From: an uncultured bacterium
GTDB lineage: Bacteria > Acidobacteriota > Aminicenantia > Aminicenantales > Saccharicenantaceae
Assembly: GCA_937920515.1 (NCBI GenBank)
Contig: CALEUG010000004.1
Coordinates: 248,001-312,000, forward strand
Direction: 5' to 3'
Length of the DNA: 64,000 bases
The notes below the pieces were generated by a model that saw nothing but the letters and a program-made list of their open reading frames with translations, had not been told where the DNA came from and ran no database searches. Each line of letters begins with the position of its first letter. Position 1 is the first letter of the stretch. The translations under genes and the position numbers were made by a program. Shown piece by piece: positions 12,215-26,181 of the stretch.

Positions 12215-12347
12215 TCAACAAAATAAAATTTTTGTTGAATTTTTACCTGCCTGGTGGTAATATTCTTTGCGTTTCCCCCCACCGTTATTGCCGGCGGGGG
12301 TGTTTTCCACAGTTGTGGAAATTTATGTGGAAATCTTTTGGCGCGTC
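12215..12347. other. Candidate chromosomal origin (oriC) and dnaA control region
   Basis: The 348-base gap before dnaA has four relevant elements. An AT-rich 24-bp inverted repeat has arms TCAACAAAA (12215-12223) and TTTTGTTGA (12230-12238). A dnaA promoter candidate is TTGAAT (12235-12240), 17 bases, TAATAT (12258-12263). DnaA-box-like sites follow: TTTTCCACA (12303-12311) and two copies of TGTGGAAAT (12314-12322, 12326-12334). The first two boxes form a perfect inverted pair separated by GT. Boxes differ from TTATCCACA by one or two bases. Bases 12077-12214 show only a G/C-rich stretch with a T9 run. Confidence 0.6.
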
Positions 12348-13679
12348 ATGAAGTTTGAAGATAAAGTTAATCCCTGGAACAGGATACTGGCGGAAGTCAA
12401 AAACCGGGTCGAGGGCCAGGCCTTCGAAACCTGGTTCGAACCCACCTCCTACATCGGAGAGGACGGCGAAACTCTATATATCAAGGTCCCGAATGCCTAC
12501 TTCAAGGACTGGCTGAGTTTCCATTATTCACGCCTGATTAACGAATGCTGCCAGGAATTGTTCAATAAAAGCTTCGATATCAAGTACATTTATGATGAGA
12601 CTCCGACTTCCTTTCTTCGCAATTCGCCGGATGAACGAAAGCTCCACCAGGCGGTGACCCAGGCGGCCAATCTCAATCCCAATTATACCTTTGAAAATTT
12701 CGTGGTGGGCAATTGCAACCAGTTCGCTCACGCCGCGGCCGTGGCTGTGGCTAAAAACCCGGCCAAATCCTATAATCCCCTCTACATTTATGGCGGAGCC
12801 GGCCTGGGAAAAACCCACCTCATGAACGCCATTGGCCACCAGATCATGCGCAGCAGCGCCAGAATCAAGGTCCTCTATGTTACCACCGAGCGCTTCATGA
12901 ACGAGCTTATAAACCACCTTCAGTATGGCAAGATCCTGGAGTTCAGGCAGAAATACCGGGCAGTAGACGTGCTCTTGATGGATGACATCCACTACATTTC
13001 CGGCCGGGAACGAACCAAGGAAGAATTTTTCCATACCTTTAACCATCTTTATGACAGCCAGAAGCAGATCGTCATTTCCAGCGACTGTCCGCCCAAGGAT
13101 ATCCCCCACCTGGAAGACCGTTTCCGCTCTCGTTTTGAGTGGGGCCTGATCGCCGACCTGCGTCCACCAGATATAGAAACCAGAATTGCCATCCTCAAGA
13201 AAAAAGCTGAATTGGAAGATATAATCCTGCCTGAACCGGTTGCCCTTTACATCGCCGATAAGGTTCACTCCAACATCAGGGAACTGGAGGGTTATCTACG
13301 CCGGGTTATTGCTTACGCTTCGCTTAAAGGATCAAGAATTGACCTGGAACTGGCCAAGGAAGCCTTGAAGGGCCTGCTCGATGCCTCAGCCAACGTCATC
13401 ACCGTGGAAAAAATACAGAAGGTGGTCTGCACCCAGTACAAAATCAAACCATCCGAGCTGAAGTCAAAAAACAACTCTCCCCGGGTCTCCTTCCCCAGGC
13501 AGGTGGCCATGTACCTGGCCAAAGAGCTGACCGACAATTCTCTTCCCGAAATCGGCAAGAAATTCGGCGGTAAGCATCATACCACCGTTTTGCACAGTAT
13601 AAGAAAAATAGAAAAATTAAGAGAGCACGACCAGGAATTCAACAGAGAAATCAACAACCTGATTCATCTCCTAAAATGA
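12348..13679 (+). CDS. dnaA: Chromosomal replication initiator DnaA
   Basis: ATP-dependent initiator that binds oriC and loads DnaB. About 443 residues. Domain I begins with NPWNRILAEVKNRVEGQAFETWF. The AAA+ domain has Walker A GGAGLGKTHL near residue 146, VLLMDDIHYISGRERTKEEFFHTFN (Walker B) and SDCPPKDIPHLEDRFRSRFEWG (box VII). The C-terminal helix-turn-helix has PRVSFPRQVAMYLAKELT and KFGGKHHTTVLHS, the DnaA-box-reading signature. I use the ATG at 12348; a TTG at 12267 would run translation through the DnaA boxes. Confidence 0.96.
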   Translation: MKFEDKVNPWNRILAEVKNRVEGQAFETWFEPTSYIGEDGETLYIKVPNAYFKDWLSFHYSRLINECCQELFNKSFDIKYIYDETPTSFLRNSPDERKLHQAVTQAANLNPNYTFENFVVGNCNQFAHAAAVAVAKNPAKSYNPLYIYGGAGLGKTHLMNAIGHQIMRSSARIKVLYVTTERFMNELINHLQYGKILEFRQKYRAVDVLLMDDIHYISGRERTKEEFFHTFNHLYDSQKQIVISSDCPPKDIPHLEDRFRSRFEWGLIADLRPPDIETRIAILKKKAELEDIILPEPVALYIADKVHSNIRELEGYLRRVIAYASLKGSRIDLELAKEALKGLLDASANVITVEKIQKVVCTQYKIKPSELKSKNNSPRVSFPRQVAMYLAKELTDNSLPEIGKKFGGKHHTTVLHSIRKIEKLREHDQEFNREINNLIHLLK

Positions 13680-13793
13680 TGAAATCAATTAAGAAGGGCA
13701 GGTTTTTACACATACTAACCGTGCTTTCTTATTTTTTTATTGCCTTTTTATAATTTTTAATTATATTATTGACGTTAAAGAAAGGTGGAAAAA
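13680..13793 (+). promoter_or_regulatory. AT-rich dnaA-dnaN spacer with dnaN promoter
   Basis: A strongly AT-rich 110-base spacer. TATAAT (13749-13754) is a good -10 box, with a weak TTCTTA (13726-13731) 17 bases before it. AAGAAAGGTGG lies 5 bases before the dnaN ATG. TTTTTACACA near 13703 is a poor DnaA-box match. The spacer could also serve as a DNA unwinding element. Confidence 0.45.
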
Positions 13794-14891
13794 ATGAAGT
13801 TCTCGGCCACTAAAAACAACATTATTAATGAATTAGGATTGTTACAGGGCATTGTGGAAAAAAGAACAACCATGCCCATCCTGTCCAACGTTCTGGTGAA
13901 GGCGGGTAAGGGAAGTGTGGAATTGATGGGAACGGACCTGGAGGTGGGCCTCAAGACCAGTTTTGAGGCTGAGGTCCGGCAGGAAGGAGAGGCTGCGGTT
14001 AATGGGAAGAAGTTGTTCGATTTTATAAAGTTGCTTCCAGATGACCGAAACATAGAGTTCGTAAAAAAGGAAGAGCACCTGATGGTGAGGTCTGGCGAGA
14101 GTGAGATAAAGGTTCTGACCGCGCCGGAAGAGGACTTTCCGGCCATTCAGGATTCGAGCTTTGAAAGGGGTATTTCCTGGGATGTTTCCGAGTTCAAGGA
14201 AATGATAGATTGTGTGCTGTATGCCATTACCCAGGAGCAGCGTTATTACCTTAATGGTGCACTGCTGTCGATAAAAAATAACCAGCTGGAGCTGGTCAGC
14301 ACCGACGGTCATCGCCTGTCTTACACCAGGAGAGAATTTGAGGATTTAAGAGTCGAGAAAGAAGTCAACCAGATCATATCAAAAAAAACTCTTAACGAGC
14401 TTAAAAAGTTTGATGACGAGAAAGTGGAATTTGATTTTGATGATAACAGCCTGTTTTTCCGGGTGAAGAACCGGGTGTTGATTAGCCGCATGATTGAAAG
14501 TAAGTTCCCCAACTACCAGGCGGTCATGCCCAGGGATAACCCTAATATTTTGAATGTGGAGAGAGAGGTTCTGGTGACGGCCATCAAGCGGGTTTCCATC
14601 CTGTCCTCAGAAAAGTCCAGGGGGATCAAGTTTGACCTGAAGCCGGGCGAGCTCAAGCTCTTTTCCTCTAACCCGGAGTTCGGGGAAGCCAGGGATAAGC
14701 TAACCGTGGATTACCAGGGTAAGGAGATGGAGATAGGTTTTAATTCCCAGTACCTGCTTGACTTTTTAAGCACGGTCTCCTCGGACCGGGTAATTTTTGA
14801 AATAAAAGACGAAAACAGCGCCGTGTTGATCAAACCCGAAGCCGAGTCCAGAGGGGTTTACCTCTACGTACTGATGCCCATGAAAATCTGA
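13794..14891 (+). CDS. dnaN: DNA polymerase III sliding clamp (beta subunit)
   Basis: Forms the ring that tethers replicative polymerase to DNA. About 365 residues with three repeated clamp domains. Visible landmarks are KRTTMPILSNVLVKA in domain 1, SVELMGTDLEVGLK, LVSTDGHRLSYTR in domain 2, ILSSEKSRGIKFDL in domain 3 and the C-terminal YVLMPMKI. The ATG at 13794 has GAAAGGTGG upstream; a GTG at 13785 adds three unneeded residues. Its stop is 3 bases from the end of the opposing hydrogenase protease gene. Confidence 0.97.
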   Translation: MKFSATKNNIINELGLLQGIVEKRTTMPILSNVLVKAGKGSVELMGTDLEVGLKTSFEAEVRQEGEAAVNGKKLFDFIKLLPDDRNIEFVKKEEHLMVRSGESEIKVLTAPEEDFPAIQDSSFERGISWDVSEFKEMIDCVLYAITQEQRYYLNGALLSIKNNQLELVSTDGHRLSYTRREFEDLRVEKEVNQIISKKTLNELKKFDDEKVEFDFDDNSLFFRVKNRVLISRMIESKFPNYQAVMPRDNPNILNVEREVLVTAIKRVSILSSEKSRGIKFDLKPGELKLFSSNPEFGEARDKLTVDYQGKEMEIGFNSQYLLDFLSTVSSDRVIFEIKDENSAVLIKPEAESRGVYLYVLMPMKI

Positions 14892-14894
14892 GTA

Positions 14895-15398
14895 TCAGCG
14901 AGAGGCGCCGACAGCCAGGCTGGCTATGTATTCAGCCACCTGTCGGCAGGCTTCTTTGACCGCGGGGGACACCGGATGTCCGAAGTCCAGCAGCGGTGGC
15001 TGAATCCCGATGAAATAAATGTGGCAGGCCGAGTCGGCAGTAAGCTTTTCCAGCAGCTGGTAGAATTCGCTGCTTATTTTTTTCTTTTTTCTCCGCCCGG
15101 GCTCCAGCCTGGTGGCCAGAATGTGGCCCGGCTGGTGGCCGGTATCCAGGGCGTCAATAATTATAAGGTGAGAGGGCTTGAGTCGCTTTATCCTTCGGTT
15201 GTAAGAATCGATTAGCTCATAGAGCCGGAGGACTTTGGCTCTAACTTTCTGGCGCCGGCTCAGCCGGCGGTCAAGAAGGCTGGCCACCAGCAGCCCGGCC
15301 GCGTCGTCTGTTTTCAGGGTGTTACCCCTGCCCAGGACCAGCGGCCGGTCTATGCCCCGCAGTTCTTTTTTCAGAAATTCAACCCCGCGGTCAGGCAT
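14895..15398 (-). CDS. [NiFe] hydrogenase maturation protease, HycI type
   Basis: A 167-residue endopeptidase that removes the C-terminal tail of the hydrogenase large subunit after nickel insertion. Seen are LGRGNTLKTDDAAGLLVA near residue 22 (the GN...DD metal-site motif), IIIDALDTG near 80 and FIGIQPPLLDFGHPVSPAV near 130, matching HycI-like group 4 proteases. GGGAAGGG precedes the ATG. It is the last gene of the operon whose large subunit (16833-18035) has a HycE-like tail, its likely substrate. It is convergent with dnaN. Confidence 0.88.
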   Translation of the reverse strand: MPDRGVEFLKKELRGIDRPLVLGRGNTLKTDDAAGLLVASLLDRRLSRRQKVRAKVLRLYELIDSYNRRIKRLKPSHLIIIDALDTGHQPGHILATRLEPGRRKKKKISSEFYQLLEKLTADSACHIYFIGIQPPLLDFGHPVSPAVKEACRQVAEYIASLAVGASR

Positions 15399-15478
15399 TA
15401 GCCCTTCCCCCTCCCGCCATCAGCCTTTGATAAATTTAATACAGGCCTGAAAGCAGATCAAACCGGTGGGGCTTTGAC

Positions 15479-15877
15479 CTAAGAAGTCTTGGGTTCGGCT
15501 TTGGGCTTGACCACCGCCCGGACGTATTCCCATTCCATCTTCAGGTTGTGACGGTCGTAGTCAGAGATTTCAAACCGGGTGTCCATCAGCATGGCCTCGG
15601 TCGGACAGGAATCCACGCACTGGGCGCAGTGGATGCAGCGGTCGTTGTGGATGACCATTCTGAACCTTTTTTCGGCTTCGTTGGTGGCCGTTATTTCTAT
15701 GGCCTCAGCCGGGCAGTCGCGCTCGCAGGCCCGGCAGACAATGCACAGCTCGGGGCGGAGGTAGGGTGAGCCCCGGAAATCCCTGGGCACTTCCAGCTTC
15801 TGTAACGGGTAGTCGACAGTGGCTGGTTTCTTAAACAGGTGGCGGAGAAGTTCGGGGATAAACACGCCTATCTTCAT
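15479..15877 (-). CDS. NuoI/HyfH-like two-cluster ferredoxin subunit
   Basis: A 132-residue peripheral subunit carrying two [4Fe-4S] clusters that pass electrons towards the small subunit. Ligands C45/C48/C51/C55 (CIVCRACERDCP) and C81/C84/C87/C91 (CIHCAQCVDSCP) are complete. The N-terminal amphipathic segment (IPELLRHLFKKPATVDYP) resembles the membrane-contacting helix of NuoI. The start overlaps the NuoH-like stop by 4 bases (ATGA). The Lys-rich C-terminus ends the complex; the maturation protease follows after an 80-base gap. Confidence 0.93.
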   Translation of the reverse strand: MKIGVFIPELLRHLFKKPATVDYPLQKLEVPRDFRGSPYLRPELCIVCRACERDCPAEAIEITATNEAEKRFRMVIHNDRCIHCAQCVDSCPTEAMLMDTRFEISDYDRHNLKMEWEYVRAVVKPKAEPKTS

Positions 15878-16845
15878 GAGATCAACCCCTTTACCAGGAT
15901 GACGATTAAAAGTTGCAGGATGGCCAGCGGGGCCAGGTATTTCCAGGCAAAACTCACAACCTGGTCCACCCTGATTCTGGAAGTGGTGGCCCGGATTAAT
16001 GATAAAAAGAATATCACGAACAGTGTCTTGATGATGAAATTCAGCAACCCCAGGAAAACCCCTCCCGGAAAGCCACCGAGAAAAACGGTGGCCAGAAGTC
16101 CGGCTGCCACCACCATCTCGGCATCCATCATCAGGCGGAACAGGGCCAGTTTCTTGCCGGAGTATTCGGTAAAAGTGCCGCCGACAATTTCGGTCTCGGC
16201 GTGGGGGATGTCGAAGGGTGTTCTTTCCAGCTTGGCCTGGACGCAGATCAGGGCAACGATAAAACCCAGCAGGTTAACCAGGGCCAGAGCAGGCTTTTGC
16301 CGGTAGAAGGCGGCAATTTCAGCCAGGCGCCAGGAGTCAGCCAGCACGGCCGGGCTCAGTACCGACAGAAAGAGAGGAACTTCGTAGCCGAAGAGCATGG
16401 TCAGGACCCGGGCTCCTCCTATAGTGGAAAACAGGTTGGTGGAAGACCAGCCGGCCAGGAAGAAGATGAACGTGGGCAGGCTCAACAGGTAGAGGACCAC
16501 AATCAGGTCGCCGTTGAAGGAAATAGCTGAAGGCTGGTCCAGGCTGTAATTCCAGACGGGTAGCAGCAGCATGGCCGTAAAGACTATGGCCAGGCCGACC
16601 GCCGGCAGGACGGAGAACATTTTCCGGTCGGCTCTATCCGGCACGATGTCCTCCTTGGCCATGAGCTTGATGAAGTCGGCAATCGGCTGCAGCAACCCGA
16701 AGCGGCCGGTGTGGGTCGGTCCCATCCGGTTCTGAAGGCGGGCGTAGAGCTTGCGGTCGTACCACTCGACGAAGGTGGAGTAAAGGAACAAGAAGAGCAG
16801 ACCGGGATAGATGACGAGATAGATCAGAGTCTTCACAGTGGCCAT
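15874..16845 (-). CDS. NuoH/HyfC-like membrane subunit
   Basis: A 323-residue polytopic protein (about eight helices) that links the redox arm to the ion-pumping arm. Family signatures seen are VEWYDRKLYARLQNRMGPTHTGRFGLLQPIADFIKL in the first loop (given here as separate segments WYDRKLYARLQNRMGP and GLLQPIADFIK), and ERTPFDIPHAETEIVGG followed by TEYSG. The acidic residues in these loops are those lining the quinone-site/E-channel in complex I. It overlaps the large subunit gene by 13 bases. Confidence 0.94.
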   Translation of the reverse strand: MATVKTLIYLVIYPGLLFLFLYSTFVEWYDRKLYARLQNRMGPTHTGRFGLLQPIADFIKLMAKEDIVPDRADRKMFSVLPAVGLAIVFTAMLLLPVWNYSLDQPSAISFNGDLIVVLYLLSLPTFIFFLAGWSSTNLFSTIGGARVLTMLFGYEVPLFLSVLSPAVLADSWRLAEIAAFYRQKPALALVNLLGFIVALICVQAKLERTPFDIPHAETEIVGGTFTEYSGKKLALFRLMMDAEMVVAAGLLATVFLGGFPGGVFLGLLNFIIKTLFVIFFLSLIRATTSRIRVDQVVSFAWKYLAPLAILQLLIVILVKGLIS

Positions 16846-18035
16846 TCTGCTTCCCTCTTTCTTGCTTTCCCAGCCGAAACTTTAAGGCTGAGGGTTTTTA
16901 AGGAGTTCATGGAGATTATTTTTTCCTGTCCGCTCCGGGCATCGACCAGAGACACCGCCCGCTCGGCACAGCAGATGCAGGGGTCGATGGCCGCGAAAAT
17001 CAGCGGGACGTCGGCGATGAAGCCGTTCTTGAGCATCTTGATGGTGGCCGCATAGTTGCCCAGGGTCGGGGCCCGGACTTTTAGCCGCTCTGGCTTATCT
17101 GTGCCATTACTCTTGATGTAATGTATGTTCTCTCCGCGGGGCGCCTCGTAGCGGCTGACCACCTCGTTGGGCTTGGCCCGGCGAGGGGCCCGGACGGCCA
17201 CCGGTCCGGACGGCAGGTTTTTCAGAAGATATTCGATTATGTTATAGCACTGGAAAAGTTCTTTGATTCTAACCACCGTCCGGCCCAGGACATCGCAGGT
17301 GTCGGCGGTGCAGACTTCAAAGGGGACCTCATCGTAGACGGCGTAAGGGTCATCTTTGCGGACATCCATAGGCACGCCGGAAGCCCGGAGCGTGGGGCCC
17401 ACGGCGCACAGGGCGATGGCGTCTTCCCTGGATAAATAGCCCACGCCGGCCAGCCTGGCCACGAAGCTCGGTTCATTTGTCCCCAGATGTTGGTAGTACT
17501 CGCTGCGCTGGCGGAGTATGGCCAGGGAATCGAGAATGTGCTTGACCTGCTGTTCGTCCAGGTCCCGCCGAACGCCGCCGATGGTGTTGATGCCATAATG
17601 CACCCGGTTGCCGCAGATAATTTCCAGGATGTCCATGACGATTTCGCGGTCGCGCCAGGTGTACATGAAAAAGCTGTCAAAACCGGCTTCGTGCCCGGCC
17701 ACACCCAGCCAGAGCAGGTGGCTGTGGATTCTTTCCAGCTCGGCCACCAGAGTTCGGATGTAAAGGCCGCGTTTGGGCGGTTCCAGCTCCATCAGTTTCT
17801 CCACCCCCTGGACGTAGCAGGTGGTGTGGGAGTGGGAGCAGATGCCGCAGATGCGCTCGGTCAGGTAGATATTCTGAATCCAGGTCTTCTGCTCGGCCAG
17901 CTTTTCCAGTCCCCGGTGATTGTAGCCGAGGCGGATGTCGGCGTCGCGAATTATTTCTCCCTCCACGGTCATGCGCAGACTGATGGGCTCTTTCAGCGCC
18001 GGGTGTTGCGGCCCTATGGGTATCTGAAATCTCAT
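16833..18035 (-). CDS. Group 4 [NiFe] hydrogenase large subunit (NuoD/HycE-like)
   Basis: The catalytic subunit, 400 residues. Unlike NuoD it keeps both nickel-binding motifs: RICGICSHSH (C63, C66) and DPCICCAER (C353, C356). After AER comes a 41-residue tail starting AVSLVDARSGQEK, much like the tail cleaved from E. coli HycE. An active NiFe site is therefore predicted, making H2 from reduced ferredoxin or the reverse. GPQHPALKEP at the N-terminus and LGYNHRGLEK are shared with NuoD. It overlaps the NuoC-like stop by 4 bases. The exact group 4 subgroup needs a phylogeny. Confidence 0.93.
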   Translation of the reverse strand: MRFQIPIGPQHPALKEPISLRMTVEGEIIRDADIRLGYNHRGLEKLAEQKTWIQNIYLTERICGICSHSHTTCYVQGVEKLMELEPPKRGLYIRTLVAELERIHSHLLWLGVAGHEAGFDSFFMYTWRDREIVMDILEIICGNRVHYGINTIGGVRRDLDEQQVKHILDSLAILRQRSEYYQHLGTNEPSFVARLAGVGYLSREDAIALCAVGPTLRASGVPMDVRKDDPYAVYDEVPFEVCTADTCDVLGRTVVRIKELFQCYNIIEYLLKNLPSGPVAVRAPRRAKPNEVVSRYEAPRGENIHYIKSNGTDKPERLKVRAPTLGNYAATIKMLKNGFIADVPLIFAAIDPCICCAERAVSLVDARSGQEKIISMNSLKTLSLKVSAGKARKREAEWPL

Positions 18036-18505
18036 TTCTTACCTCCAGGAATGACCTCAGGCGGTCTTTCATACTTCCAGTCCTTGCGCAGCGGATAATT
18101 GCCGGCCGGCCAGCCGTCGGGCAGCAGCAGCGGGCGGGTATCGGGAATATTCTGGACGACAATCCCGAACATATCCTGCAGTTCCCGCTCGTAAAGTATG
18201 GCTCCGGGGATGAGCTCGCAGATACTGGGAAGGAGGGGGTTGTCCCGCGGTATCTCTGTTCGGATGTTGACGCAGGTAAAGTTGTTGGCAAAGTGGTAAA
18301 GGACTTCGAAGGCCTGTCCCAGGTCCACCCCGCTGATGGTGGCCAGGTGGGTAAAACCCATCTCGTTTTTGAGCCAGCCGACTGCGGCCAGCAGGTCGTC
18401 AACCTTAACCCTGATAAAAATGCGCCGCGGGGCCGGGTTGGTAATCTCCACCACTCGATCACCCAGACTGGCTTTGGCTTTATCCATCAAGATCTGGTCG
18501 CTCAT
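18032..18505 (-). CDS. NuoC-like 30-kDa subunit
   Basis: A 157-residue peripheral-arm subunit. The signature YERELQDMFGI (residues 105-114) and the downstream LLLPDGWPAGNYPLRKDW are diagnostic of the NuoC/HycE N-terminal family. It scaffolds the large subunit and carries no cofactor. In hydrogenase 3/4 this domain is fused to the large subunit; here it is separate, as in complex I and Mbh-type enzymes. Confidence 0.93.
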   Translation of the reverse strand: MSDQILMDKAKASLGDRVVEITNPAPRRIFIRVKVDDLLAAVGWLKNEMGFTHLATISGVDLGQAFEVLYHFANNFTCVNIRTEIPRDNPLLPSICELIPGAILYERELQDMFGIVVQNIPDTRPLLLPDGWPAGNYPLRKDWKYERPPEVIPGGKK

Positions 18506-18512
18506 TTTGACC

Positions 18513-18938
18513 TCATCCCTTCAGTTTATTCAGGAGCTTAACCACCCCGTCGATAACGGCATCGGGGCGCACCGGGCAGCCGGGTACGTAGACGTCCACC
18601 GGAATGACCTGGTCAATCCCGCCCAGCACGTTGTAAGCGCCGCGGTAGACGCAGCCGGACATGGCGCAGGCCCCGACGGCGATGACGAACTTGGGGTCCG
18701 GCGTCTGCTCGTAGATCCGGATCAACCGGTCTTTCATCTGCCTGGTGGCCGGGCCGGTGCAGACAATGACATCGGCATGCCGCGGCGTGGCCTTGAGCAG
18801 TATGCCGAATCGCTCGACGTCGAACCGAGGGGTAAGGGCGGCCACGACTTCAATGTCGCAGGCGTTGCAGGCCCCGGTATTCAGGTGAAGAATCCAGGGC
18901 GATTTCAGCCGGGACCAGTTAGTCAGTTTGGTCAGCAT
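18513..18938 (-). CDS. NuoB-like hydrogenase small subunit
   Basis: A 141-residue subunit holding the proximal [4Fe-4S] cluster beside the NiFe site. Likely ligands are C24 and C27 in GACNACDIE (the CxxC pattern of group 4 hydrogenases rather than the tandem CC of NuoB), C91 in VGACAMSGC, and C121 in VPGCPVRP. No Tat signal, as expected for a cytoplasm-facing group 4 enzyme. Its gene lies 2 bases after the NuoA-like stop. Confidence 0.94.
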   Translation of the reverse strand: MLTKLTNWSRLKSPWILHLNTGACNACDIEVVAALTPRFDVERFGILLKATPRHADVIVCTGPATRQMKDRLIRIYEQTPDPKFVIAVGACAMSGCVYRGAYNVLGGIDQVIPVDVYVPGCPVRPDAVIDGVVKLLNKLKG

Positions 18939-18939
18939 G

Positions 18940-19272
18940 TTAATCCCTCGTAATCAGGGCCAGAATGGCCAGAAATATCAGGGCCAGATATATTATACCC
19001 AAATATACTATTTTTCCGATCGGAATAGTGGCAATTACCAGGGCGGCCACGTGCATGATGGTGAAAAACAGGGCAAAGACGTAGAATAGCCGGTAGCCGA
19101 ACTGTACCTTGACTCCCGGGATATCCTCACCGCAGGCGTAGGTGGTGAGCTTGCCGGGGGTGCGGTTCAGCCCGGGGGCCATGGCCCGACCCAGGACATA
19201 GAGCAGGCCGGCCACGGCCAGGAAGAAAAAGAAGGCCACCGGCGGAGACAGTAAAAATTGCAGTCCATTCAT
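18940..19272 (-). CDS. NuoA-like membrane subunit
   Basis: A 110-residue protein with three predicted helices. The loop YACGEDIPGVKVQFGYRLFY matches the conserved first loop of NuoA (usually YECG), which sits near the redox/membrane junction of complex I. Most group 4 hydrogenases lack a recognisable NuoA, so its presence beside an intact NiFe site is notable. The gene lies between the NuoK-like and NuoB-like genes, nearly without gaps. Confidence 0.88.
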   Translation of the reverse strand: MNGLQFLLSPPVAFFFFLAVAGLLYVLGRAMAPGLNRTPGKLTTYACGEDIPGVKVQFGYRLFYVFALFFTIMHVAALVIATIPIGKIVYLGIIYLALIFLAILALITRD

Positions 19273-19275
19273 GGC

Positions 19276-19584
19276 TTATCCCTTCAGTTTTGAAAGTAAG
19301 CGGACATCCAGGCTCCTGTTCTTCTTGTAGATATTGATGATAAGGGCCAGGGCGGCGGCCACCAGGGCCACCTCCACCACGATGTAGGTTATGGCCAGGC
19401 TCTGGGCCAGCAGGATGTTATTTTTGACCGCGCCTGTGGCCACGATGGCCAGACTGACTCCCTTGCTGATTATTTCCACCGCGATGAACAGCCTGATCAG
19501 GTTGCGCATGGTGAGCAGGCAGTACAGGCCGATAAAGACCAGCAGGGCGGCAAAGAAAAGATACAGAAACCACAGATTACTCAT
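19276..19584 (-). CDS. NuoK/MrpC-like membrane subunit
   Basis: About 102 residues and three helices. MRNLIRLFIAVEIISKGVSLA contains the helix-2 Glu typical of NuoK/MnhC, and the following helix has a second acidic residue in YIVVEVALVAAALAL. These acids take part in ion translocation. I start at the ATG at 19584 (MSNLWF), overlapping the NuoJ-like gene by 8 bases; a longer upstream frame is mostly the other gene's sequence. Confidence 0.9.
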   Translation of the reverse strand: MSNLWFLYLFFAALLVFIGLYCLLTMRNLIRLFIAVEIISKGVSLAIVATGAVKNNILLAQSLAITYIVVEVALVAAALALIINIYKKNRSLDVRLLSKLKG

Positions 19585-20065
19585 CTCTGTCTTCTTCCTT
19601 TTTCCGGAATAGGGCCAGAACGGCCAGCACCCCGGCCAGGATGACTCCGACCTGGGCCACCAGGTCAAAGGTCCTCTGTTTCCAGAGAACCTGGCCGAAG
19701 GTCCCGGTTTCCGGTCCGGAGGGCAGGGCCGGGATCTTCTGCAGCAGCGACTTCATCACCAGTCCATCAATGACCAGGAACAGGATCAGGAAGACCGGAA
19801 AGGCCAGCTTGACCAGCCGGGCCTCAGTTACCTCGTCCCCTTTCTTGGTCAGGGCAATGGTCAGAATGAACAGAACGGTAATCAGACCGGCCACCACCGA
19901 GATCTCAAAGACGCCAGCATAAGGGGCAGCCAGCCTGAAGAAAATTATACCCAGCAACAGGCTGGCCACGGCCAGCGACAGGGCGGCTTTAATCAGGTCT
20001 TTCAGCAGAATGGCCAGTACGGAGAAGATAACCAGGCCGCAGAGCAGAATTATTTGTATTACCAT
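19577..20065 (-). CDS. NuoJ/MbhE-like membrane subunit
   Basis: A 162-residue polytopic protein with about five helices. The region LAAPYAGVFEISVVAGLITVLFI corresponds to the NuoJ helix-3 region (here split as PYAGVFEISVVAG and LITVLFILTIAL). It belongs to the E-channel module joining the redox arm to the antiporters. It ends in a charged cytoplasmic tail. The start lies 1 base after the upstream NuoM/N-like stop. Confidence 0.85.
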   Translation of the reverse strand: MVIQIILLCGLVIFSVLAILLKDLIKAALSLAVASLLLGIIFFRLAAPYAGVFEISVVAGLITVLFILTIALTKKGDEVTEARLVKLAFPVFLILFLVIDGLVMKSLLQKIPALPSGPETGTFGQVLWKQRTFDLVAQVGVILAGVLAVLALFRKKEEDRDE

Positions 20066-20066
20066 A

Positions 20067-21545
20067 TCACAATCCCCACATCAGAACCTGCTGGATTCCC
20101 CGGGCCAGGGCCTCGGCCGCCGGAGAAATCCAGGTCTTGAAAATTGGAGTAAAGAAAATGCCGGCCAGGACACAGACCAGGGCCAGCACCACGTTGGCCG
20201 CCGACATCCAGAAAGGAGCTTCCCTGACCTGAAGCCATTTTTCAGCCACCCTGCCGAAAAAGGCCTGGCGCTGGATCAGCAGGTAATACCAGAGGGTCAG
20301 GATACTGGCCAGGATGGCTACCAGGGCATAGCCGAATTCCCTGGCCTGGACAAGAGCCATGATTATGATCAGCTTGCTCCAGAACCCGGCCAGCGGCGGC
20401 ACTCCGGCAATGGACAGGGCGCCCACCAGGTTGGTCCCAGCCGTAACCGGAACCATTTTACCCAGTCCGCCCAGCTCTTCCAGGTTCCGGGTCCCGGTGA
20501 TGTGCTGGATGGAGCCGGAATTCAAGAACAGCAATCCCTTGGCCACGGCGTGGTTGAACAGGTGAAACAGCGCCCCGGCAATACCGAGGGGGGTACCAAG
20601 GGCCAGGCCCAGCACAATATAGCCGACCTGGCTGATGGAAGAGTAGGCCAGCATTCTCTTGATGTCCTTTTGACCGAGGGCCAGCAGAGCGGCCACCACC
20701 ATGGAGATGGTGCCCAGTGCCATAAGCAGCCGGGATAGGGCCGGGGTGATCCCGATGACGCTGTAAACAATTCTGAACAGGGCATAGATGCCGGAAACCT
20801 TGATCAGCAGGCCCGACAGCATGGCAGAAATCGGAGCCGGGGCCGAAGGATGGGCGTCGGGCAACCAGGCATGGAAAGGCACCAGGGCGGCTTTCAGGCC
20901 AAAGCCCATGATGAAGAAAGCCACACAGACTCCCAGCACCAGCCTGGCCTCCAGGTCCTGCAGGCCCTGAGCCACGGCCTGGAAATTAAGGCTGCCCGTC
21001 ATCCCGAAAATCACGGTGATGCTGAGCAGGGCGAAAGCCGAGGCCACCACCGACAGCATCAGATACTTGAAGGAAGCTTCCAGCTCGTCGTAGCCCAGGC
21101 CAAAGGCCACCAGGGCGTAAGATGCCACGGCCGCCACTTCCAGGAAGAGGTAAACAGAGAAAAGGTCAGGGACCAGAACCAGGCCGTTCATGCCGGCAAT
21201 CATCACCAGGAACAGAGCATAGAACGTCGACTTGTGCCCGTAATGTTCCAGGTAGTCAATGGAAAAGAGCGAGATACACAGGCTGACCAGTGAGATGGTA
21301 AAAAGCATGAACAGGTTGAAAGCGTCCAGGGCCACCTGCAGGTTGACCTTTTCCCCCAGCCAGTGCAGGTTCTGGACGATGAAGCCCTGGTTAAAGACGG
21401 GCTTGACCAGCAGAATGGAGTTGAACACCAGGAAAGCCAGAGCGGCGTTGGTCAGAACATCGGGCAGCAATTTTTTTGAAAATTTTCCAATCAGAGGCAG
21501 AAAGGCAGCAACCAGTAAAGGCATGACAATGAATGAAAAAACCAC
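20067..21545 (-). CDS. NuoM/NuoN/MrpD-like antiporter subunit
   Basis: A 492-residue, about 14-helix ion-pumping subunit. Seen are an acidic TM5-type site (YLFLEVAAVASYALVAFG), ALVPFHAWLPDAHPSAPAPISAMLSG with the TM7/8 Lys/His region, and FHLFNHAVAKGLLFLNSG. The start is probably GTG at 21545, with GGAGG 4 bases upstream. It is the third antiporter-like subunit in transcription order. Confidence 0.92.
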   Translation of the reverse strand: MVFSFIVMPLLVAAFLPLIGKFSKKLLPDVLTNAALAFLVFNSILLVKPVFNQGFIVQNLHWLGEKVNLQVALDAFNLFMLFTISLVSLCISLFSIDYLEHYGHKSTFYALFLVMIAGMNGLVLVPDLFSVYLFLEVAAVASYALVAFGLGYDELEASFKYLMLSVVASAFALLSITVIFGMTGSLNFQAVAQGLQDLEARLVLGVCVAFFIMGFGLKAALVPFHAWLPDAHPSAPAPISAMLSGLLIKVSGIYALFRIVYSVIGITPALSRLLMALGTISMVVAALLALGQKDIKRMLAYSSISQVGYIVLGLALGTPLGIAGALFHLFNHAVAKGLLFLNSGSIQHITGTRNLEELGGLGKMVPVTAGTNLVGALSIAGVPPLAGFWSKLIIIMALVQAREFGYALVAILASILTLWYYLLIQRQAFFGRVAEKWLQVREAPFWMSAANVVLALVCVLAGIFFTPIFKTWISPAAEALARGIQQVLMWGL

Positions 21546-21558
21546 CGCTCCTCCTCTA

Positions 21559-23427
21559 TTATTTTAATAACTGAAGTATTATCCAGACGACGACCACCAG
21601 GCCGCCGACGGTCCAGGCCAGGTAATTGGCATACTGGCCGTTATGGGCTTTCTGCAGCAGGCCGGTAAAGGTCCGGCCGACGGCAGTAACAACCTTTTCG
21701 TAAACATAATCAACCGGCCGGTCGATGAACCGGAACAGCAGCCGTGATAGCCACTGCAGGAATTTCACACCCTGCTCGTAGAGGTCAAAGAACCGGGCCT
21801 CTGACAGGTCATATAGCTTGTGCAGCACCGGCAGGTTGTGAATCGGCTCGGAAGCCAGATAGGCCTTTTTGCCGCTCCTGTTCCAGCCGTAAAAATGAAT
21901 GCCCAGGGCGATGATCAGGCAAAGGATGGAAACCCCGGCCACCGGGTTGAACAGGTCAAGGGCGTGGGAGGTGAAATCCAGATGTTCGGCCGCTTCGGCT
22001 TTCCCGTGCAGAATTGGCTGGATGAAATGCTGCAGCGGTAGCTTGTTGTACACTCCAAAGGTGATGCACAGGGCGGCCAGGATGAGAATCGGCAGGACAA
22101 TCGGGGCTTCGCTTTCCCTGGTTTTAGGGACCTCGGTTGAGCGAGGGCCTAAAAAGACCGAATGTCCGGCCTTGAGGAAAGAGGCGAAAGTAAAGATGGC
22201 TCCCACCCAGGCGGCAATGGCGAATATCGGGTAGCCCGTTTCCAGGGCCCCGTGGAAAACCATTTCCTTGGAAACGAAGCCGTTCAGAGGCCAGACACCG
22301 GAGATGGCCAGGGCGCAGACCGCAAAGCCGGCAGCCGTCCAGGGCATTTCCCGGGCCAGCCCGCCGAGTTTCTTAAGTTCGGTGGTGCCGGTGCGATGTT
22401 CAACAGATCCCGAGCTCAGGAACAACCCGCACTTGTACATGGCGTGGTTGATCATGTGGAAGATGCCGCCGGCTATACCTATCGGAATGGCCGTGCCCAC
22501 GCCCAGCACCATGTAACCCACCTGGCTGACGGCATGGAAAGAAAGCAGCTTCTTGAAGTCTTTCTGAATAAGGGCCATGAAAACGGCAAAGACTATGGTG
22601 GCCGCGCCGATTATCATCAGCAGGATGGACAGCCCGCTACCCACCTTCAGCTCAAAGAAATCCAGGGTGATTCTGGCCAGCAGGTAAATGCCCAGGAGTT
22701 TCTCGAAGGAAGCCGGCATGAAAGCCATGAAGCTCACCGGGGCATCAAGGGCGGCGTCGGGAATCCAGGTGTGGAAGGGCATGGCCCCGGCCTTGCCGAT
22801 AGCCCCGATCATCATCAGGACGAAGGCAGCCAAGGTGAGGCCGTGGGGCTCAACCTGAATTTTGTCCATGGTCAGGGTGCCGGTGGATGCCCAGAGCAGG
22901 CCGATTCCCAGGATCATGGCAAAATCGCAGAAACCGCCGATGAGCAGCGACTTGACGGCTGTCCGGTGGGAGGTCGGCTTTAAGCCCAGGGTGACCAGGG
23001 CGTAGGTGGTTATCAGCAGCGCTTCCCAGAAAAATACCAGCAGGACGAAATTGTTGGCCAGAACCGCCCCGTTGGAGAAGGCGGCCGCCAGAAAGACATA
23101 TCCGAAGTATTCCCGGGCACGCGGGTGGTTTTTCATTTTGACCGCGGAATAAAGGCAGATCAGAAACAGGAAGCCGCTCAGGGCCAGCAGGATGAAGGCC
23201 GAGAAGTGGTAGAGCCTGAGGTCAAAATTGATGCCCGGACCGAGCCAGTCCGAAACCAGGGACAGGTTTCTCCGGGCAAAGAGTACGAAGCCGAGATACA
23301 GAAGGGCGCCCGCGCTCATCACGGAAAGAATTTCCCTGGCGTACCTGATCCGCGACGGGATTAGCAGCAGAACTACCGCCACCGCTGCTGGAAACAGAAT
23401 GGGCCATAATAAAGTTGTTGGACTCAT
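21559..23427 (-). CDS. NuoL/HyfB-like antiporter subunit with C-terminal extension
   Basis: About 622 residues. The core (about 1-460) has LLVFFWEALLITTYALVTLGL, AGAMPFHTWIPDAALDAPVSFMA and FHMINHAMYKCGLFLSSG, the proton-channel landmarks. The extra 150 residues contain amphipathic segments (PVLHKLYDLSEARFFDLYEQG) before a last helix, resembling the lateral helix of NuoL. The ATG at 23427 has GGTGG upstream and overlaps the previous stop as ATGA; GTG at 23436 is an alternative. Confidence 0.92.
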   Translation of the reverse strand: MSPTTLLWPILFPAAVAVVLLLIPSRIRYAREILSVMSAGALLYLGFVLFARRNLSLVSDWLGPGINFDLRLYHFSAFILLALSGFLFLICLYSAVKMKNHPRAREYFGYVFLAAAFSNGAVLANNFVLLVFFWEALLITTYALVTLGLKPTSHRTAVKSLLIGGFCDFAMILGIGLLWASTGTLTMDKIQVEPHGLTLAAFVLMMIGAIGKAGAMPFHTWIPDAALDAPVSFMAFMPASFEKLLGIYLLARITLDFFELKVGSGLSILLMIIGAATIVFAVFMALIQKDFKKLLSFHAVSQVGYMVLGVGTAIPIGIAGGIFHMINHAMYKCGLFLSSGSVEHRTGTTELKKLGGLAREMPWTAAGFAVCALAISGVWPLNGFVSKEMVFHGALETGYPIFAIAAWVGAIFTFASFLKAGHSVFLGPRSTEVPKTRESEAPIVLPILILAALCITFGVYNKLPLQHFIQPILHGKAEAAEHLDFTSHALDLFNPVAGVSILCLIIALGIHFYGWNRSGKKAYLASEPIHNLPVLHKLYDLSEARFFDLYEQGVKFLQWLSRLLFRFIDRPVDYVYEKVVTAVGRTFTGLLQKAHNGQYANYLAWTVGGLVVVVWIILQLLK

Positions 23428-24854
23428 CTTAGCCACCAGCTGATATGAGTTGTTGCCATCTGGACAAGTTTCATCGGGTAGGACACCAGCAGCCCGGCCA
23501 GCACCGACAGTACAGCCAGTGTGGCCACCACCCCGACCATCGAAGGAGTCTTCTCCGGTGCCGGGATTTTGGGTTCACTTAGGAAAACCAGGGCGAATAC
23601 CCGGAGCAGGTAGAACATGGTCAGCACCGCGGTGAACAAAGCCAGGGCTGCCACCCAGACCTGGTCAGCCTGGACCGTGCCCATTATGACCAGGAGCTTG
23701 GAGAAGAAACCGCCCAGAGGCGGCAGTCCGATGACAGAAAAAGCGCATATCAGGAATGAAATAGCCGTGATGGGCATGGTCTTGATCAGCCCGCCCATCT
23801 CTCTTATGTCACGTTTATGCGTGGCATGGATCACTATGCCGGCACAAAGGAATAAGCCGGCCTTGGCCAGTCCGTGCATCAGGATGAACAGCAGAGAGCC
23901 GGAGATGGCCGTGGGCGTGGCCACGCTCAGGCCCAGGAAAATATAGCCGATCTGGCTGACCGTGGAATAAGCCAGGATCCTTTTTAAGTCATTCTCGACA
24001 GTGGCTGCGCCGGCGGCCACCAGGCTGGACAGAACGGCCAGGATTATTATGGCCTGCTGCCAGTCGGGCGGAATCTTGAAGGTATAGAGGAACAGCCTGG
24101 CATAAGCATAAACGCCGATTTTGACCAGGACGGCCGCGTGCAGCAGGGCGGTAACCGTGGTCGGGGCCACGCCGGCGTCCGGCAGCCAGGTATGCAGCGG
24201 TACCGTGGCTGACTTGGAGAACATGCCGAACAGGATCAGCAGGACAGCGGTGCCGGAGATGGCCACTCCGCGCATATCCACCAGGTTGAAGGTGCCGGTC
24301 TGCCCGTAGATGAGTATGAAGCCCAGCAGCATGACCACTGCTCCGCCAAAGGTAACCAGGAAGGCTTTGTCGGCCTTGAGGATGTAATCCTTTTGCCGGT
24401 AAAAGCCTATGAGCCGCCAGCAGGCGATGGCGATTATTTCCCAGAACAGGTACATGAAGACCAGGTTGCTGGAGAATACCAGCCCCATCATCGAGCCGAT
24501 GAACAGGACCACCATCAGGTAGTATTCATTCTGGTGGTCTTCGTGGTGGATGTAGCCGAGCGAGTAGACGATGATCAGGAACCCGATGAACGAGGAGACA
24601 ATGGCCATGAAGACGGACAGGGGGTCGATGACCAAAACGAAATCCAGACCCAGGGCCAGGCTTCTGGACCAGATGACCTCACCGCCCTGCATGGCCCGGG
24701 GAATCAGGGTCAGGGAGAGAACAGCGGTAATGGCTCCCAGCAGGACCGACCAGGCGGAACGGAGGCGGGGCGAGATGGCTCCGGCCAGAGGCACAAGCAA
24801 CGAACCCAAAATCGGAATAAAAATGGTAAGGAGGGTGATGGTTTCTACTTTCAT
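23424..24854 (-). CDS. NuoN/MrpD-like antiporter subunit, first gene of hydrogenase operon
   Basis: A 476-residue, about 14-helix subunit. FMYLFWEIIAIACWRLIGF contains the essential TM5 Glu, SATVPLHTWLPDAGVAPTTVTALLHAAVLVKIG (split at LHTWLPDAGVAPTTV / ALLHAAVLVKIG) the central Lys/His region, and LFILMHGLAKAGLFLCAG the later half-channel. No Shine-Dalgarno precedes the ATG at 24854. Instead a near-consensus promoter ends 9 bases before it, predicting a leaderless mRNA. Confidence 0.92.
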   Translation of the reverse strand: MKVETITLLTIFIPILGSLLVPLAGAISPRLRSAWSVLLGAITAVLSLTLIPRAMQGGEVIWSRSLALGLDFVLVIDPLSVFMAIVSSFIGFLIIVYSLGYIHHEDHQNEYYLMVVLFIGSMMGLVFSSNLVFMYLFWEIIAIACWRLIGFYRQKDYILKADKAFLVTFGGAVVMLLGFILIYGQTGTFNLVDMRGVAISGTAVLLILFGMFSKSATVPLHTWLPDAGVAPTTVTALLHAAVLVKIGVYAYARLFLYTFKIPPDWQQAIIILAVLSSLVAAGAATVENDLKRILAYSTVSQIGYIFLGLSVATPTAISGSLLFILMHGLAKAGLFLCAGIVIHATHKRDIREMGGLIKTMPITAISFLICAFSVIGLPPLGGFFSKLLVIMGTVQADQVWVAALALFTAVLTMFYLLRVFALVFLSEPKIPAPEKTPSMVGVVATLAVLSVLAGLLVSYPMKLVQMATTHISWWLR

Positions 24855-24863
24855 GAGTTATTG

Positions 24864-24893
24864 AGTATATTAAAATAAAAAACTTATTGTCAA
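24864..24893 (-). promoter_or_regulatory. Hydrogenase operon promoter (leaderless)
   Basis: Minus strand TTGACA (24893-24888), an 18-base AT-rich spacer and TATACT (24869-24864). Only 9 bases separate the -10 box from the ATG at 24854, so the transcript should begin at about -3 to +1. The bases up to 25035 are AT-rich and hold the divergent promoter of the GNAT-like gene. Confidence 0.7.
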
Positions 24894-25035: not shown

Positions 25036-26163
25036 ATGAGCGTTAACCTGATCGAAGTCAAAACCAAGCCCCAGCTTAAAACCTTTATTTACCTGCCCGA
25101 AAAATTGCATAAGGATCAGCCCAACTGGGTGCACCCCATCTACATGGATGAGTGGGCCTATTTCAACCCCAGAAAGAACAAGGCTTTCAGTTATTCCGAT
25201 ACGCTGCTCCTGCTGGCCGAGGAAGATGGCCAGGTGGTAGGCCGGGTTATGGGCATCATCAACCACCGTTACAACCAGGTCCGCAACGAGAAAACTGCCC
25301 GCTTCGGTTATCTGGAAAGCATCCAGGACCAGGCCGTGGTGCATGCCCTGCTGTCGCGGGTCGAGCAATGGGCCAGGGAGAAAGGCATGACCAGAATCAT
25401 CGGGCCCTACGGCTTTTCCGACCAGGACCCGGAGGGCTTTCTGATTAAGGGCTTTGAGAACCGGGCCACCATCGCTACCTATTACAATTTCGAATGGCTG
25501 CCTGAGATGGTGGAAAAAGAAGGCTACAGCAAAGACATTGACTATTTTGTATATAAGATAGACGTGCCGAAAGAAATCCCGGAAGTCTATACCCGGATTG
25601 CAGAACGGATATTGAAAAAAGGGAACTTTAAGATCCTGGAATTCAATAAAAGAAAGGAAATAAAACCCTGGATCAGGCCCATTCTGTCGCTGATGAACGA
25701 GACCTATGTGGAGAGTAATATCTACGGCTATGCTCCCCTGGATGAAAAAGAGATGGACGACCTGGCCAGGAAATACATGCCAGTTCTCGACCCCAGGTTC
25801 ATCAAAGGCGTCCTGAAGGACGGGCAGGTGGTGGCCTTCATAGTGGCCATCCCGGACATGACCGCTGGTATTAAGAAAGCACGGGGGAGACTGTTCCCGT
25901 TTGGTTTCATCCACATCCTGAGGGCTCAGAAGAAGACCAGGCAGCTGGACCTGCTGCTGGGAGCCATCAAGAAAGAGTACAGGGGAATGGGCCTCGATGC
26001 CCTGATGGGTATGGCCATGCTGAACTCGGCCCGGAAGGCTGGCATTGAGATCATAGATACCCACCACGAGATGGAGGCCAACGTCAGGGTCCGGTCGGAG
26101 ATGGAAAGGCTGGGCGGCAAAATTTATAAGGTCTACCGGGTGTACCAGAAAGCCCTGGTTTGA
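25036..26163 (+). CDS. GNAT-like acyltransferase family protein of unknown substrate
   Basis: A 375-residue protein. The N-terminal half has TLLLLAEEDGQVVGRVMGIINHRYN and RFGYLESIQD, a GNAT-like beta-strand/turn pattern, and a central IIGPYGFSDQDPEGFLIKGF. The C-terminal half repeats the theme (KEYRGMGLDALMGMAML, reminiscent of the acetyl-CoA loop RGxG/A). Members are usually annotated N-acetyltransferase without known substrate. The SD AAGGA supports the ATG at 25036. It diverges from the hydrogenase operon; no functional link is shown. Confidence 0.7.
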   Translation: MSVNLIEVKTKPQLKTFIYLPEKLHKDQPNWVHPIYMDEWAYFNPRKNKAFSYSDTLLLLAEEDGQVVGRVMGIINHRYNQVRNEKTARFGYLESIQDQAVVHALLSRVEQWAREKGMTRIIGPYGFSDQDPEGFLIKGFENRATIATYYNFEWLPEMVEKEGYSKDIDYFVYKIDVPKEIPEVYTRIAERILKKGNFKILEFNKRKEIKPWIRPILSLMNETYVESNIYGYAPLDEKEMDDLARKYMPVLDPRFIKGVLKDGQVVAFIVAIPDMTAGIKKARGRLFPFGFIHILRAQKKTRQLDLLLGAIKKEYRGMGLDALMGMAMLNSARKAGIEIIDTHHEMEANVRVRSEMERLGGKIYKVYRVYQKALV

Positions 26164-26181
26164 GGCCCTGCCCCGCTCGGG

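Follow-up and report, generated by a model that had tools for sequence, protein, structure and literature searches.

We analyzed a twelve-gene operon in a stretch of 64,000 nucleotides (nt) from an uncultured bacterium of the Saccharicenantaceae (Acidobacteriota; contig CALEUG010000004.1, positions 248,001 to 312,000), referred to here as the window. By every sequence criterion examined, the operon encodes a [NiFe] hydrogenase, and its membrane arm has the parts list of complex I, including a free-standing NuoA-like subunit. We propose, with a probability of roughly 80%, that the enzyme is an energy-converting ferredoxin:proton oxidoreductase that would produce H2 from reduced ferredoxin, pump ions and have complex I-like docking of its redox module. 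Very likely ferredoxin-linked and ion-pumping, the enzyme of the complex I superfamily adds a bacterial variant to an 11-subunit hydrogenase type described from archaea, and it would work like the archaeal enzyme Hfo.

The operon lies on the minus strand and runs from 24854 down to 14895 in the order antiporter 1, 2, 3, J, K, A, B, C, D, H, I, protease (Table 1). An earlier note, made from the letters alone, had described twelve same-strand, nearly gapless genes, and the gene assignments agreed with this. Spacing between genes was -13 to +13 nt, the sole exception being a gap of 80 nt before the protease gene. Pfam identified the J-, K-, A-, B-, C-, D-, H- and I-like subunits as they had been labelled, together with one antiporter and the protease, and NCBIfam covered the remaining two antiporters. 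NuoEFG was not found inside the 12-gene cluster, also as described beforehand. Gene set, gene order, ligands, maturation genes and clade could be read from the DNA.

The large subunit D carries a Complex1_49kDa domain, and its four predicted [NiFe] ligands, C63, C66, C353 and C356, did not vary among the D proteins aligned (14 of 14), with no loss of any ligand. The L1 motif CGICSHSH was present in all 26 D proteins extracted from the clade of the window (target) and its sister clade; the L2 motif was DPCICCAER in target rows and DPC[FY]SCTDR in sister rows. Residue E16, invariant in the aligned D set, aligns with E21 of MbhL, described as the key proton-reduction residue (PMC7684303) and as a proton shuttle (PMC11228991). 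The hydrogenase-type CNAC motif noted earlier in the small subunit B was confirmed as C24-N-A-C27, with the two cysteines spaced as in MbhJ; in complex I they are direct neighbours. A two-residue spacing of the proximal-cluster cysteines is the small-subunit criterion for a group 4 [NiFe] hydrogenase (PMC7684303).

The maturation genes were examined in the assembly to which the window belongs, which is 91.7% complete (2,556,867 bases), so that absences from it are not proof. Matches to HypD, HypC and HypF exceeded their cut-offs, HypA matched its family, and HypB and HypE were assigned from domain and neighbours, which completes the HypA-F set. The gene that ends the operon is a hydrogenase protease by PF01750 and the superfamily model TIGR00072, as claimed earlier. 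Its HycI label did not survive, with 66.7 bits against a cut-off of 119.1 for the HycI equivalog TIGR00142. The residue aligned to R359 of D is the last residue of the solved MbhL chain. The L1 and L2 cysteines, the small-subunit spacing, and HypA-F with a C-terminal protease, the marks of a group 4 [NiFe] hydrogenase, were all present.

Since D shares 31-38% identity with NuoD-like proteins and has the Complex1_49kDa domain, the complex might instead be a non-hydrogenase relative of the Ehr, Mbx/MBS or Nuo type in which NiFe chemistry was lost. We find this hardly credible: the four ligands, which Ehr/MBS (Mbx) enzymes lack, and E16 are retained across the clade, and the linked protease, the C-terminal tail of D and HypA-F all speak against it. 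A complex I remnant was also rejected on account of the NiFe ligands, the protease and the Hyp genes.

Profile comparisons indicated that A is a real but distant NuoA, firm as a family and marginal as a single protein. Eighteen of 20 members of the A family matched PF00507 at E<=0.01, and a profile of the family searched against the PDB matched 23 sequences at E<=1, all of them NuoA/ND3 chains. In a control set of 39 stretches, this profile detected A in 18/18 target and sister loci (16 of them inside the profile itself) and NuoA in five of six Nuo loci (E 3e-6 to 2e-3), while the 14 loci with other types of group 4 hydrogenase gave no match at E<=10. The NuoD-type family was found in 11 of 14 control genomes and PF00507 in nine of those 11; Methanocaldococcus jannaschii and Thermotoga maritima had the NuoD-type family without a PF00507 match. 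The loop motif Y-x-C-G-E was retained in most members, its Cys being missing in loci L028 and L042. The family matches to PF00507, the PDB matches, the controls and the co-occurrence with D rule out a chance match.

The earlier note had stated that group 4 enzymes generally lack a recognisable NuoA. This holds only in part: residues 500-608 of HycC are ND3-like and MbsH' carries a similar fusion (PMC9474812), and transmembrane helices (TM) 1-2 of MbhI bear the same NuoA-type loop (PMC7684303). TM2-3 of NuoA set the docking site of complex I, in which the redox module sits at a different position on the arm (PMC7684303). The unusual trait of the present operon is a separate three-helix NuoA, which is the complex I state.

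With three antiporters and a separate NuoA, the arm is complex I-like in its parts list, and to that extent the earlier description of a complete complex I membrane arm was correct. The one-to-one NuoN, NuoL and NuoM labels given to the antiporters were not supported. Antiporter 1 scored best with NuoL and not NuoN, and grouped with NuoL in the antiporter tree by a Shimodaira-Hasegawa-like approximate likelihood ratio of only 81; antiporters 2 and 3 grouped not with NuoM or NuoN but with those of another hydrogenase type. This tree was a quick one of 78 rows with many long-branch warnings, four partial rows having been removed beforehand. In a structure model of antiporter 2, a helix was predicted at 552-598, where the predicted local distance difference test score (pLDDT) was only 37-58; the top matches in a fold search with this model were 8e9i_L (NuoL) and 7qru_A (MrpA). 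By score, antiporter 3 and J are Mrp/Mbh-like, as is antiporter 2, whereas the best scores of H are with complex I, ahead of Mbh and Hyc, and D and B lean toward Mbh; the complex is thus a mosaic.

The pump residues equivalent to E144, K229 and K399 of NuoL were retained in 46/47, 47/47 and 47/47 aligned antiporters, respectively, the only exception for the glutamate being antiporter 2 of locus L025. In antiporter 1 the Glu/Lys/Lys set was conserved in 9/9, and E36 of NuoK was conserved in K.

In phylogenetic trees of D, B, H and their concatenation, the clade of the window appears to adjoin Nuo and to be separate from the remaining group 4 enzymes in the sample. With Nuo as outgroup, the D tree (48 rows) grouped the NuoA-bearing hydrogenases with support of 91/86 and all other sampled hydrogenases with 91/84. 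The corresponding values were 97/78 and 94/90 in the B tree (40 rows) and 97/97 and 95/89 in the B+D+H concatenation (40 rows); the H tree (39 rows) grouped the other hydrogenases with 87/87. The D rows comprised the window and 15 target-type loci, chosen from 49 relatives and the extra copy L133; three near-duplicates were removed, L002 being among the removed rows. An E. coli duplicate (L143) and the partial L129 were removed from the H tree. In the concatenation Mbh was entered without H, and H of L129, nominally gaps, was filled by length. The approximately unbiased (AU) test rejected the unions of Nuo with the Mbh/Ech/Coo rows (p 0.022) and with the rows of the formate hydrogenlyase (FHL) type (p 0.0058). 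Whether 'intermediate' between hydrogenases and complex I applies depends on the root and on Hfo and Fpo sequences.

In the mechanism that we propose, reduced ferredoxin from 2-oxoacid oxidation would deliver electrons to the I subunit, from which they would travel by way of the [4Fe-4S] clusters in I and B and reach the [NiFe] site of D, the place of proton reduction to H2. The D/A/H loop region and the charged J/K/H axis would carry the energy to the three antiporter-like subunits, which would expel H+ or Na+ from the cell. HypA-F would build the NiFe cofactor, and the linked protease would cut D after about R359. The NiFe ligands, the pump residues, POR and HypA-F fit the suggestion of the earlier note that H2 is made from ferredoxin with ion pumping; we infer the activity, direction, ion, stoichiometry and arm orientation of the complex. 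From the free-standing three-helix NuoA and the NuoH-like anchor we predict a redox module seated on the membrane arm in the complex I manner, without the 180-degree turn of the arm that MBH, MBS and FHL show relative to complex I (PMC9474812).

Several observations weigh against this interpretation. D and B scored higher with Mbh than with Nuo (D: MbhL 288, HycE 282 and Nqo4 208 bits; B: Nqo6 114 bits, below MbhJ in Table 1). Antiporters 2 and 3 grouped with those of loci L102 and L105, which are hydrogenases without A, and K has no glutamate at the position aligned to E72 of NuoK. The window A lies on the edge of the PF00507 cut-off (23.5 against 23.3 bits, and 23.2 in a six-frame search), and other residues, mostly MHVA, stand where NuoA has FDVE, so that the D and E of this motif are absent. 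The single-chain model of A, with helices at 10-31, 60-82 and 89-108, is weak (pLDDT 67, predicted template modelling score 0.39), and a fold search with it gave nothing significant (best E 2.3, 6hum_C). Single-gene support for the key split is modest (91/84, 94/90 and 87/87 for D, B and H). In the H tree, a Butyrivibrio Ech row fell outside the other hydrogenases, target and sister rows were not joined with support, and the sister rows did not form a single group. The AU test did not reject a clade of Nuo and this Ech row (p-AU 0.22), the groups for the test were picked after tree inspection, and none of the trees contained Hfo, Fpo and Mbx of archaea or groups 4f, 4h and 4i. PMC7886697 describes group 4g as lacking activity data for any of its enzymes.

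The higher scores of D and B with Mbh and the grouping of two antiporters with another hydrogenase type make an Mbh-like orientation possible, in which A docks like the MbhI loop and the arm has the 180-degree turn of MBH and FHL. The best scores of D and B with MbhL and MbhJ and the Mrp/Mbh-like character of antiporters 2 and 3 and of J agree with such a complex. We regard it as rather unlikely, since A is a protein of its own for which three helices are predicted, H is NuoH-like by score, the gapless operon leaves no place for extra genes like Mrp B/E/F/G, and the D, B and concatenated trees set the clade apart from Mbh.

The complex might also run mainly in reverse, with an ion gradient driving ferredoxin reduction with H2, as proposed for Hfo in acetogenic Bathyarchaeia (PMC7886697). 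The parts list is the same as that of Hfo, and the genome also has a HoxH/HoxF-like cluster, as in Bathy-6 metagenome-assembled genomes (MAGs). Reduced ferredoxin, however, can be supplied by the enzymes encoded at three POR places in the genome, and relatives, Candidatus (Ca.) Saccharicenans, are described as fermenters of sugar and protein. We consider reverse operation quite improbable and favour H2 production from ferredoxin.

The operon has counterparts in related genomes. A scan of the genome collection with D yielded 53 loci, of which L001-L049 were 66-97% identical to the window D and L050-L053, Nuo-type loci of Cupriavidus, 32%. The near loci are recorded as Ca. Saccharicenans, Aminicenantes, Acidobacteria, Omnitrophota (L042, L044, L046 and L049) and Vermiphilus (L038). 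The host of the window is itself a Ca. Saccharicenans-like member of the Aminicenantes. Gene order was surveyed in 61 loci (L001-L049, L091-L101 and L133), 37 of them long enough to hold the whole operon. The same 11-subunit order, three antiporters followed by J-K-A-B-C-D-H-I, was found in 35 of these 37, including L042 and L044 of Omnitrophota; chance is therefore excluded. L019 and L133, the only two of the 37 without this order, represent a single contig. A protease match directly followed I in 24 of 38 full-order loci, short loci included. Among 396 Acidobacteriota genomes, 35 had a D of the target or sister clade (448-844 bits; G358 partial), and A was found in 33, all among these 35; in the other two (G138 and G122) the contigs end before the place of A. 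The operon was present in 18 of 19 genomes of the same genus, the genome of the window included. Among viral contigs, a scan gave 52 pattern matches and no relative.

The closest known system is Hfo, an Fpo-like 11-subunit [NiFe] hydrogenase of Bathyarchaeia (Loh, Herve and Brune 2021, PMC7886697). By its description, Hfo has the same 11 subunits, retains the NiFe motifs, lacks NuoEFG/FpoFO and has a proposed link to ferredoxin. The combination of a NiFe site with NuoA to which the earlier note drew attention is no complete novelty, given this archaeal parts list of 11 subunits (PMC7886697). The present operon differs in being bacterial (Acidobacteriota and Omnitrophota), in the protease gene that follows in the window, and in an antiporter-J-K block that precedes A-B-C-D-H-I, whereas Hfo is reported in Fpo/Nuo order (PMC7886697); the A-B-C-D-H-I block itself is in nuo order. 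As the gene order differs and the likeness is by description only, we did not file the operon as Hfo.

Complex I (Nuo) shares the A, B, C, D, H, I order, three antiporters, a free-standing NuoA and the NuoH-like anchor. The present enzyme differs from it by its NiFe ligands, the lack of NuoEFG, antiporters without one-to-one counterparts, and a D in which the quinone-site residues of Nqo4 are not kept. Mbh of Pyrococcus furiosus (group 4d) resembles it in the scores of D and B and in a ferredoxin-type donor subunit, but the operon has no Na+ module (MbhABCF) or MbhI, has a separate NuoA, three antiporters and a NuoH-like anchor, and branches away from Mbh in the trees of D, of B and of the concatenation. 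Formate hydrogenlyase (Hyc/Hyf) shares the NiFe ligands, cleavable tail and protease; it differs in having no separate NuoA, one or more fused antiporters, a C-D fusion and a turned arm, and it fell in a separate clade in all trees. Group 4g of HydDB, loosely clustered uncharacterised ferredoxin-type membrane hydrogenases (PMC5037454), is the likely bin for the present D; 4g is a mixture of gene sets. Mrp-linked 4g hydrogenases have been reported in Omnitrophota MAGs (PMC8542988), and group 4 enzymes of Acidobacteriota/Aminicenantes are mentioned in passing (PMC11245096, PMC10766756). No account of this bacterial operon was found in the literature searched, in which subscription papers were only partly covered. 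Kadnikov et al. reportedly described Ca. Saccharicenans, and that description may already include the operon.

The origin of complex I from hydrogenases is an old question, and a bacterial branch may help to show the route. Tentatively, and at less than even odds, the NuoA-bearing bacterial hydrogenases together with archaeal Hfo may be the closest living hydrogenase relatives of complex I, with complex I-type docking already in place. If this is true, the arm turn would have preceded the loss of the NiFe site and the arrival of NuoEFG, and it would be possible to purify such a hydrogenase, complex I arm included, and to watch it pump. A hydrogenase that has its own NuoA, a NuoH-like anchor and three pumps would let complex I docking and three-pump coupling be tested directly with proton reduction instead of quinone, and the operon is well suited to testing in which order the changes toward complex I took place. 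Widely distributed among anaerobic Aminicenantes, the operon may be a main ion pump of subsurface fermenters, only two D-like genes and one NuoA-like gene having been found in this genome.

The two NuoD-like genes of the genome are the D of the operon and a C-D fusion, both with NiFe motifs. The fusion belongs to a second group 4 hydrogenase (L058:7988-18071, G000:C4:103987-114070), whose cluster comprises a molybdopterin oxidoreductase, an iron-sulfur protein, a flavin reductase-like protein, an antiporter, the C-D fusion, H and B, and resembles the 'enigmatic' cluster of Saganbacteria (PMC6349859). NuoEFG beside a membrane arm was not seen in the 91.7% complete assembly. PF01512 matched at three places, of which one is a HydB-like gene, another a HydB-like pair that is split, and the third a HoxF-like fusion within a cluster for a NiFe hydrogenase. 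The HoxH/HoxF-like hydrogenase cluster is at L123, and a HydB/NuoF-like gene at L124:7054-8550 reads as two open frames. By reading, the genome also has regions for V/A-type and F-type ATP synthases. Their c subunits (L125:5740-6342 and L126:5855-6211) contain the stretches LPGTQGIYGF and IETLVIY, which may resemble Na+-binding motifs.

Table 1. Genes of the hydrogenase operon in the window, in order of transcription
Feature	Position	Strand	Details
Antiporter-like subunit 1, NuoL-like without C-terminal lateral helix	23424..24854	-	476 aa; PRK06590 NuoL 332.7 bits, NuoN TIGR01770 208.8
Antiporter-like subunit 2, C-terminal extension of NuoL kind	21559..23436	-	625 aa; MrpD 180, MbhH 172, mycobacterial NuoL 153 bits
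Antiporter-like subunit 3, MrpD/MbhH-like	20067..21545	-	492 aa; PRK08376 344 bits, NuoM 246, NuoN 242
NuoJ-like subunit, also matching MbhD	19577..20065	-	162 aa; Oxidored_q3 39.4 bits, MbhD 31.1
NuoK-like subunit, start ATG at 19584	19276..19584	-	102 aa; Oxidored_q2 67.5 bits
Free-standing NuoA-like subunit, three predicted helices	18940..19272	-	110 aa; PF00507
NuoB/MbhJ-like small subunit, C24-N-A-C27	18513..18938	-	141 aa; MbhJ 172 bits, chloroplast NdhK 136
NuoC-like subunit	18032..18505	-	157 aa; Complex1_30kDa 107 bits
Large [NiFe] subunit D, NuoD/MbhL-like, C63 C66 C353 C356, tail after R359	16833..18035	-	400 aa
NuoH-like membrane anchor	15874..16845	-	323 aa; Nqo8 181 bits, E. coli NuoH 147, MbhM 93, HycD 73
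NuoI-like two-[4Fe-4S] ferredoxin subunit	15479..15877	-	132 aa; Pfam/NCBIfam
Hydrogenase maturation protease	14895..15398	-	167 aa; PF01750 32.3 bits (cut-off 23), TIGR00072 67.4 (cut-off 47.45)

By reading, the operon lies between dnaA/dnaN and polA. Downstream on the plus strand are dnaN (13785-14891) and dnaA (12267-13679), and upstream are a plus-strand gene at 25036 and polA at 26182 (25036-28905 overall). A dnaN-like match was present in 34 of the 61 related loci. At L019:9089-12289 (the L133 contig, G021:C119), target-type B, C, D, I and protease genes stand without H, A or antiporters beside them; this is possibly a soluble, membrane-free version. A complete operon of the sister type is present elsewhere in that genome (L091). 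L034 and L048 are contigs of one MAG (RBG_16_66_30), each with a target-type operon, and L048 shows two consecutive antiporter-1 matches. The Vermiphilus locus L038 holds the operon and groups with Omnitrophota, and is possibly a mis-binned contig. In the Omnitrophota locus L042, a second, different hydrogenase cluster, H-B-C-D-I, was located directly downstream of the target operon (L042:15537-18600).

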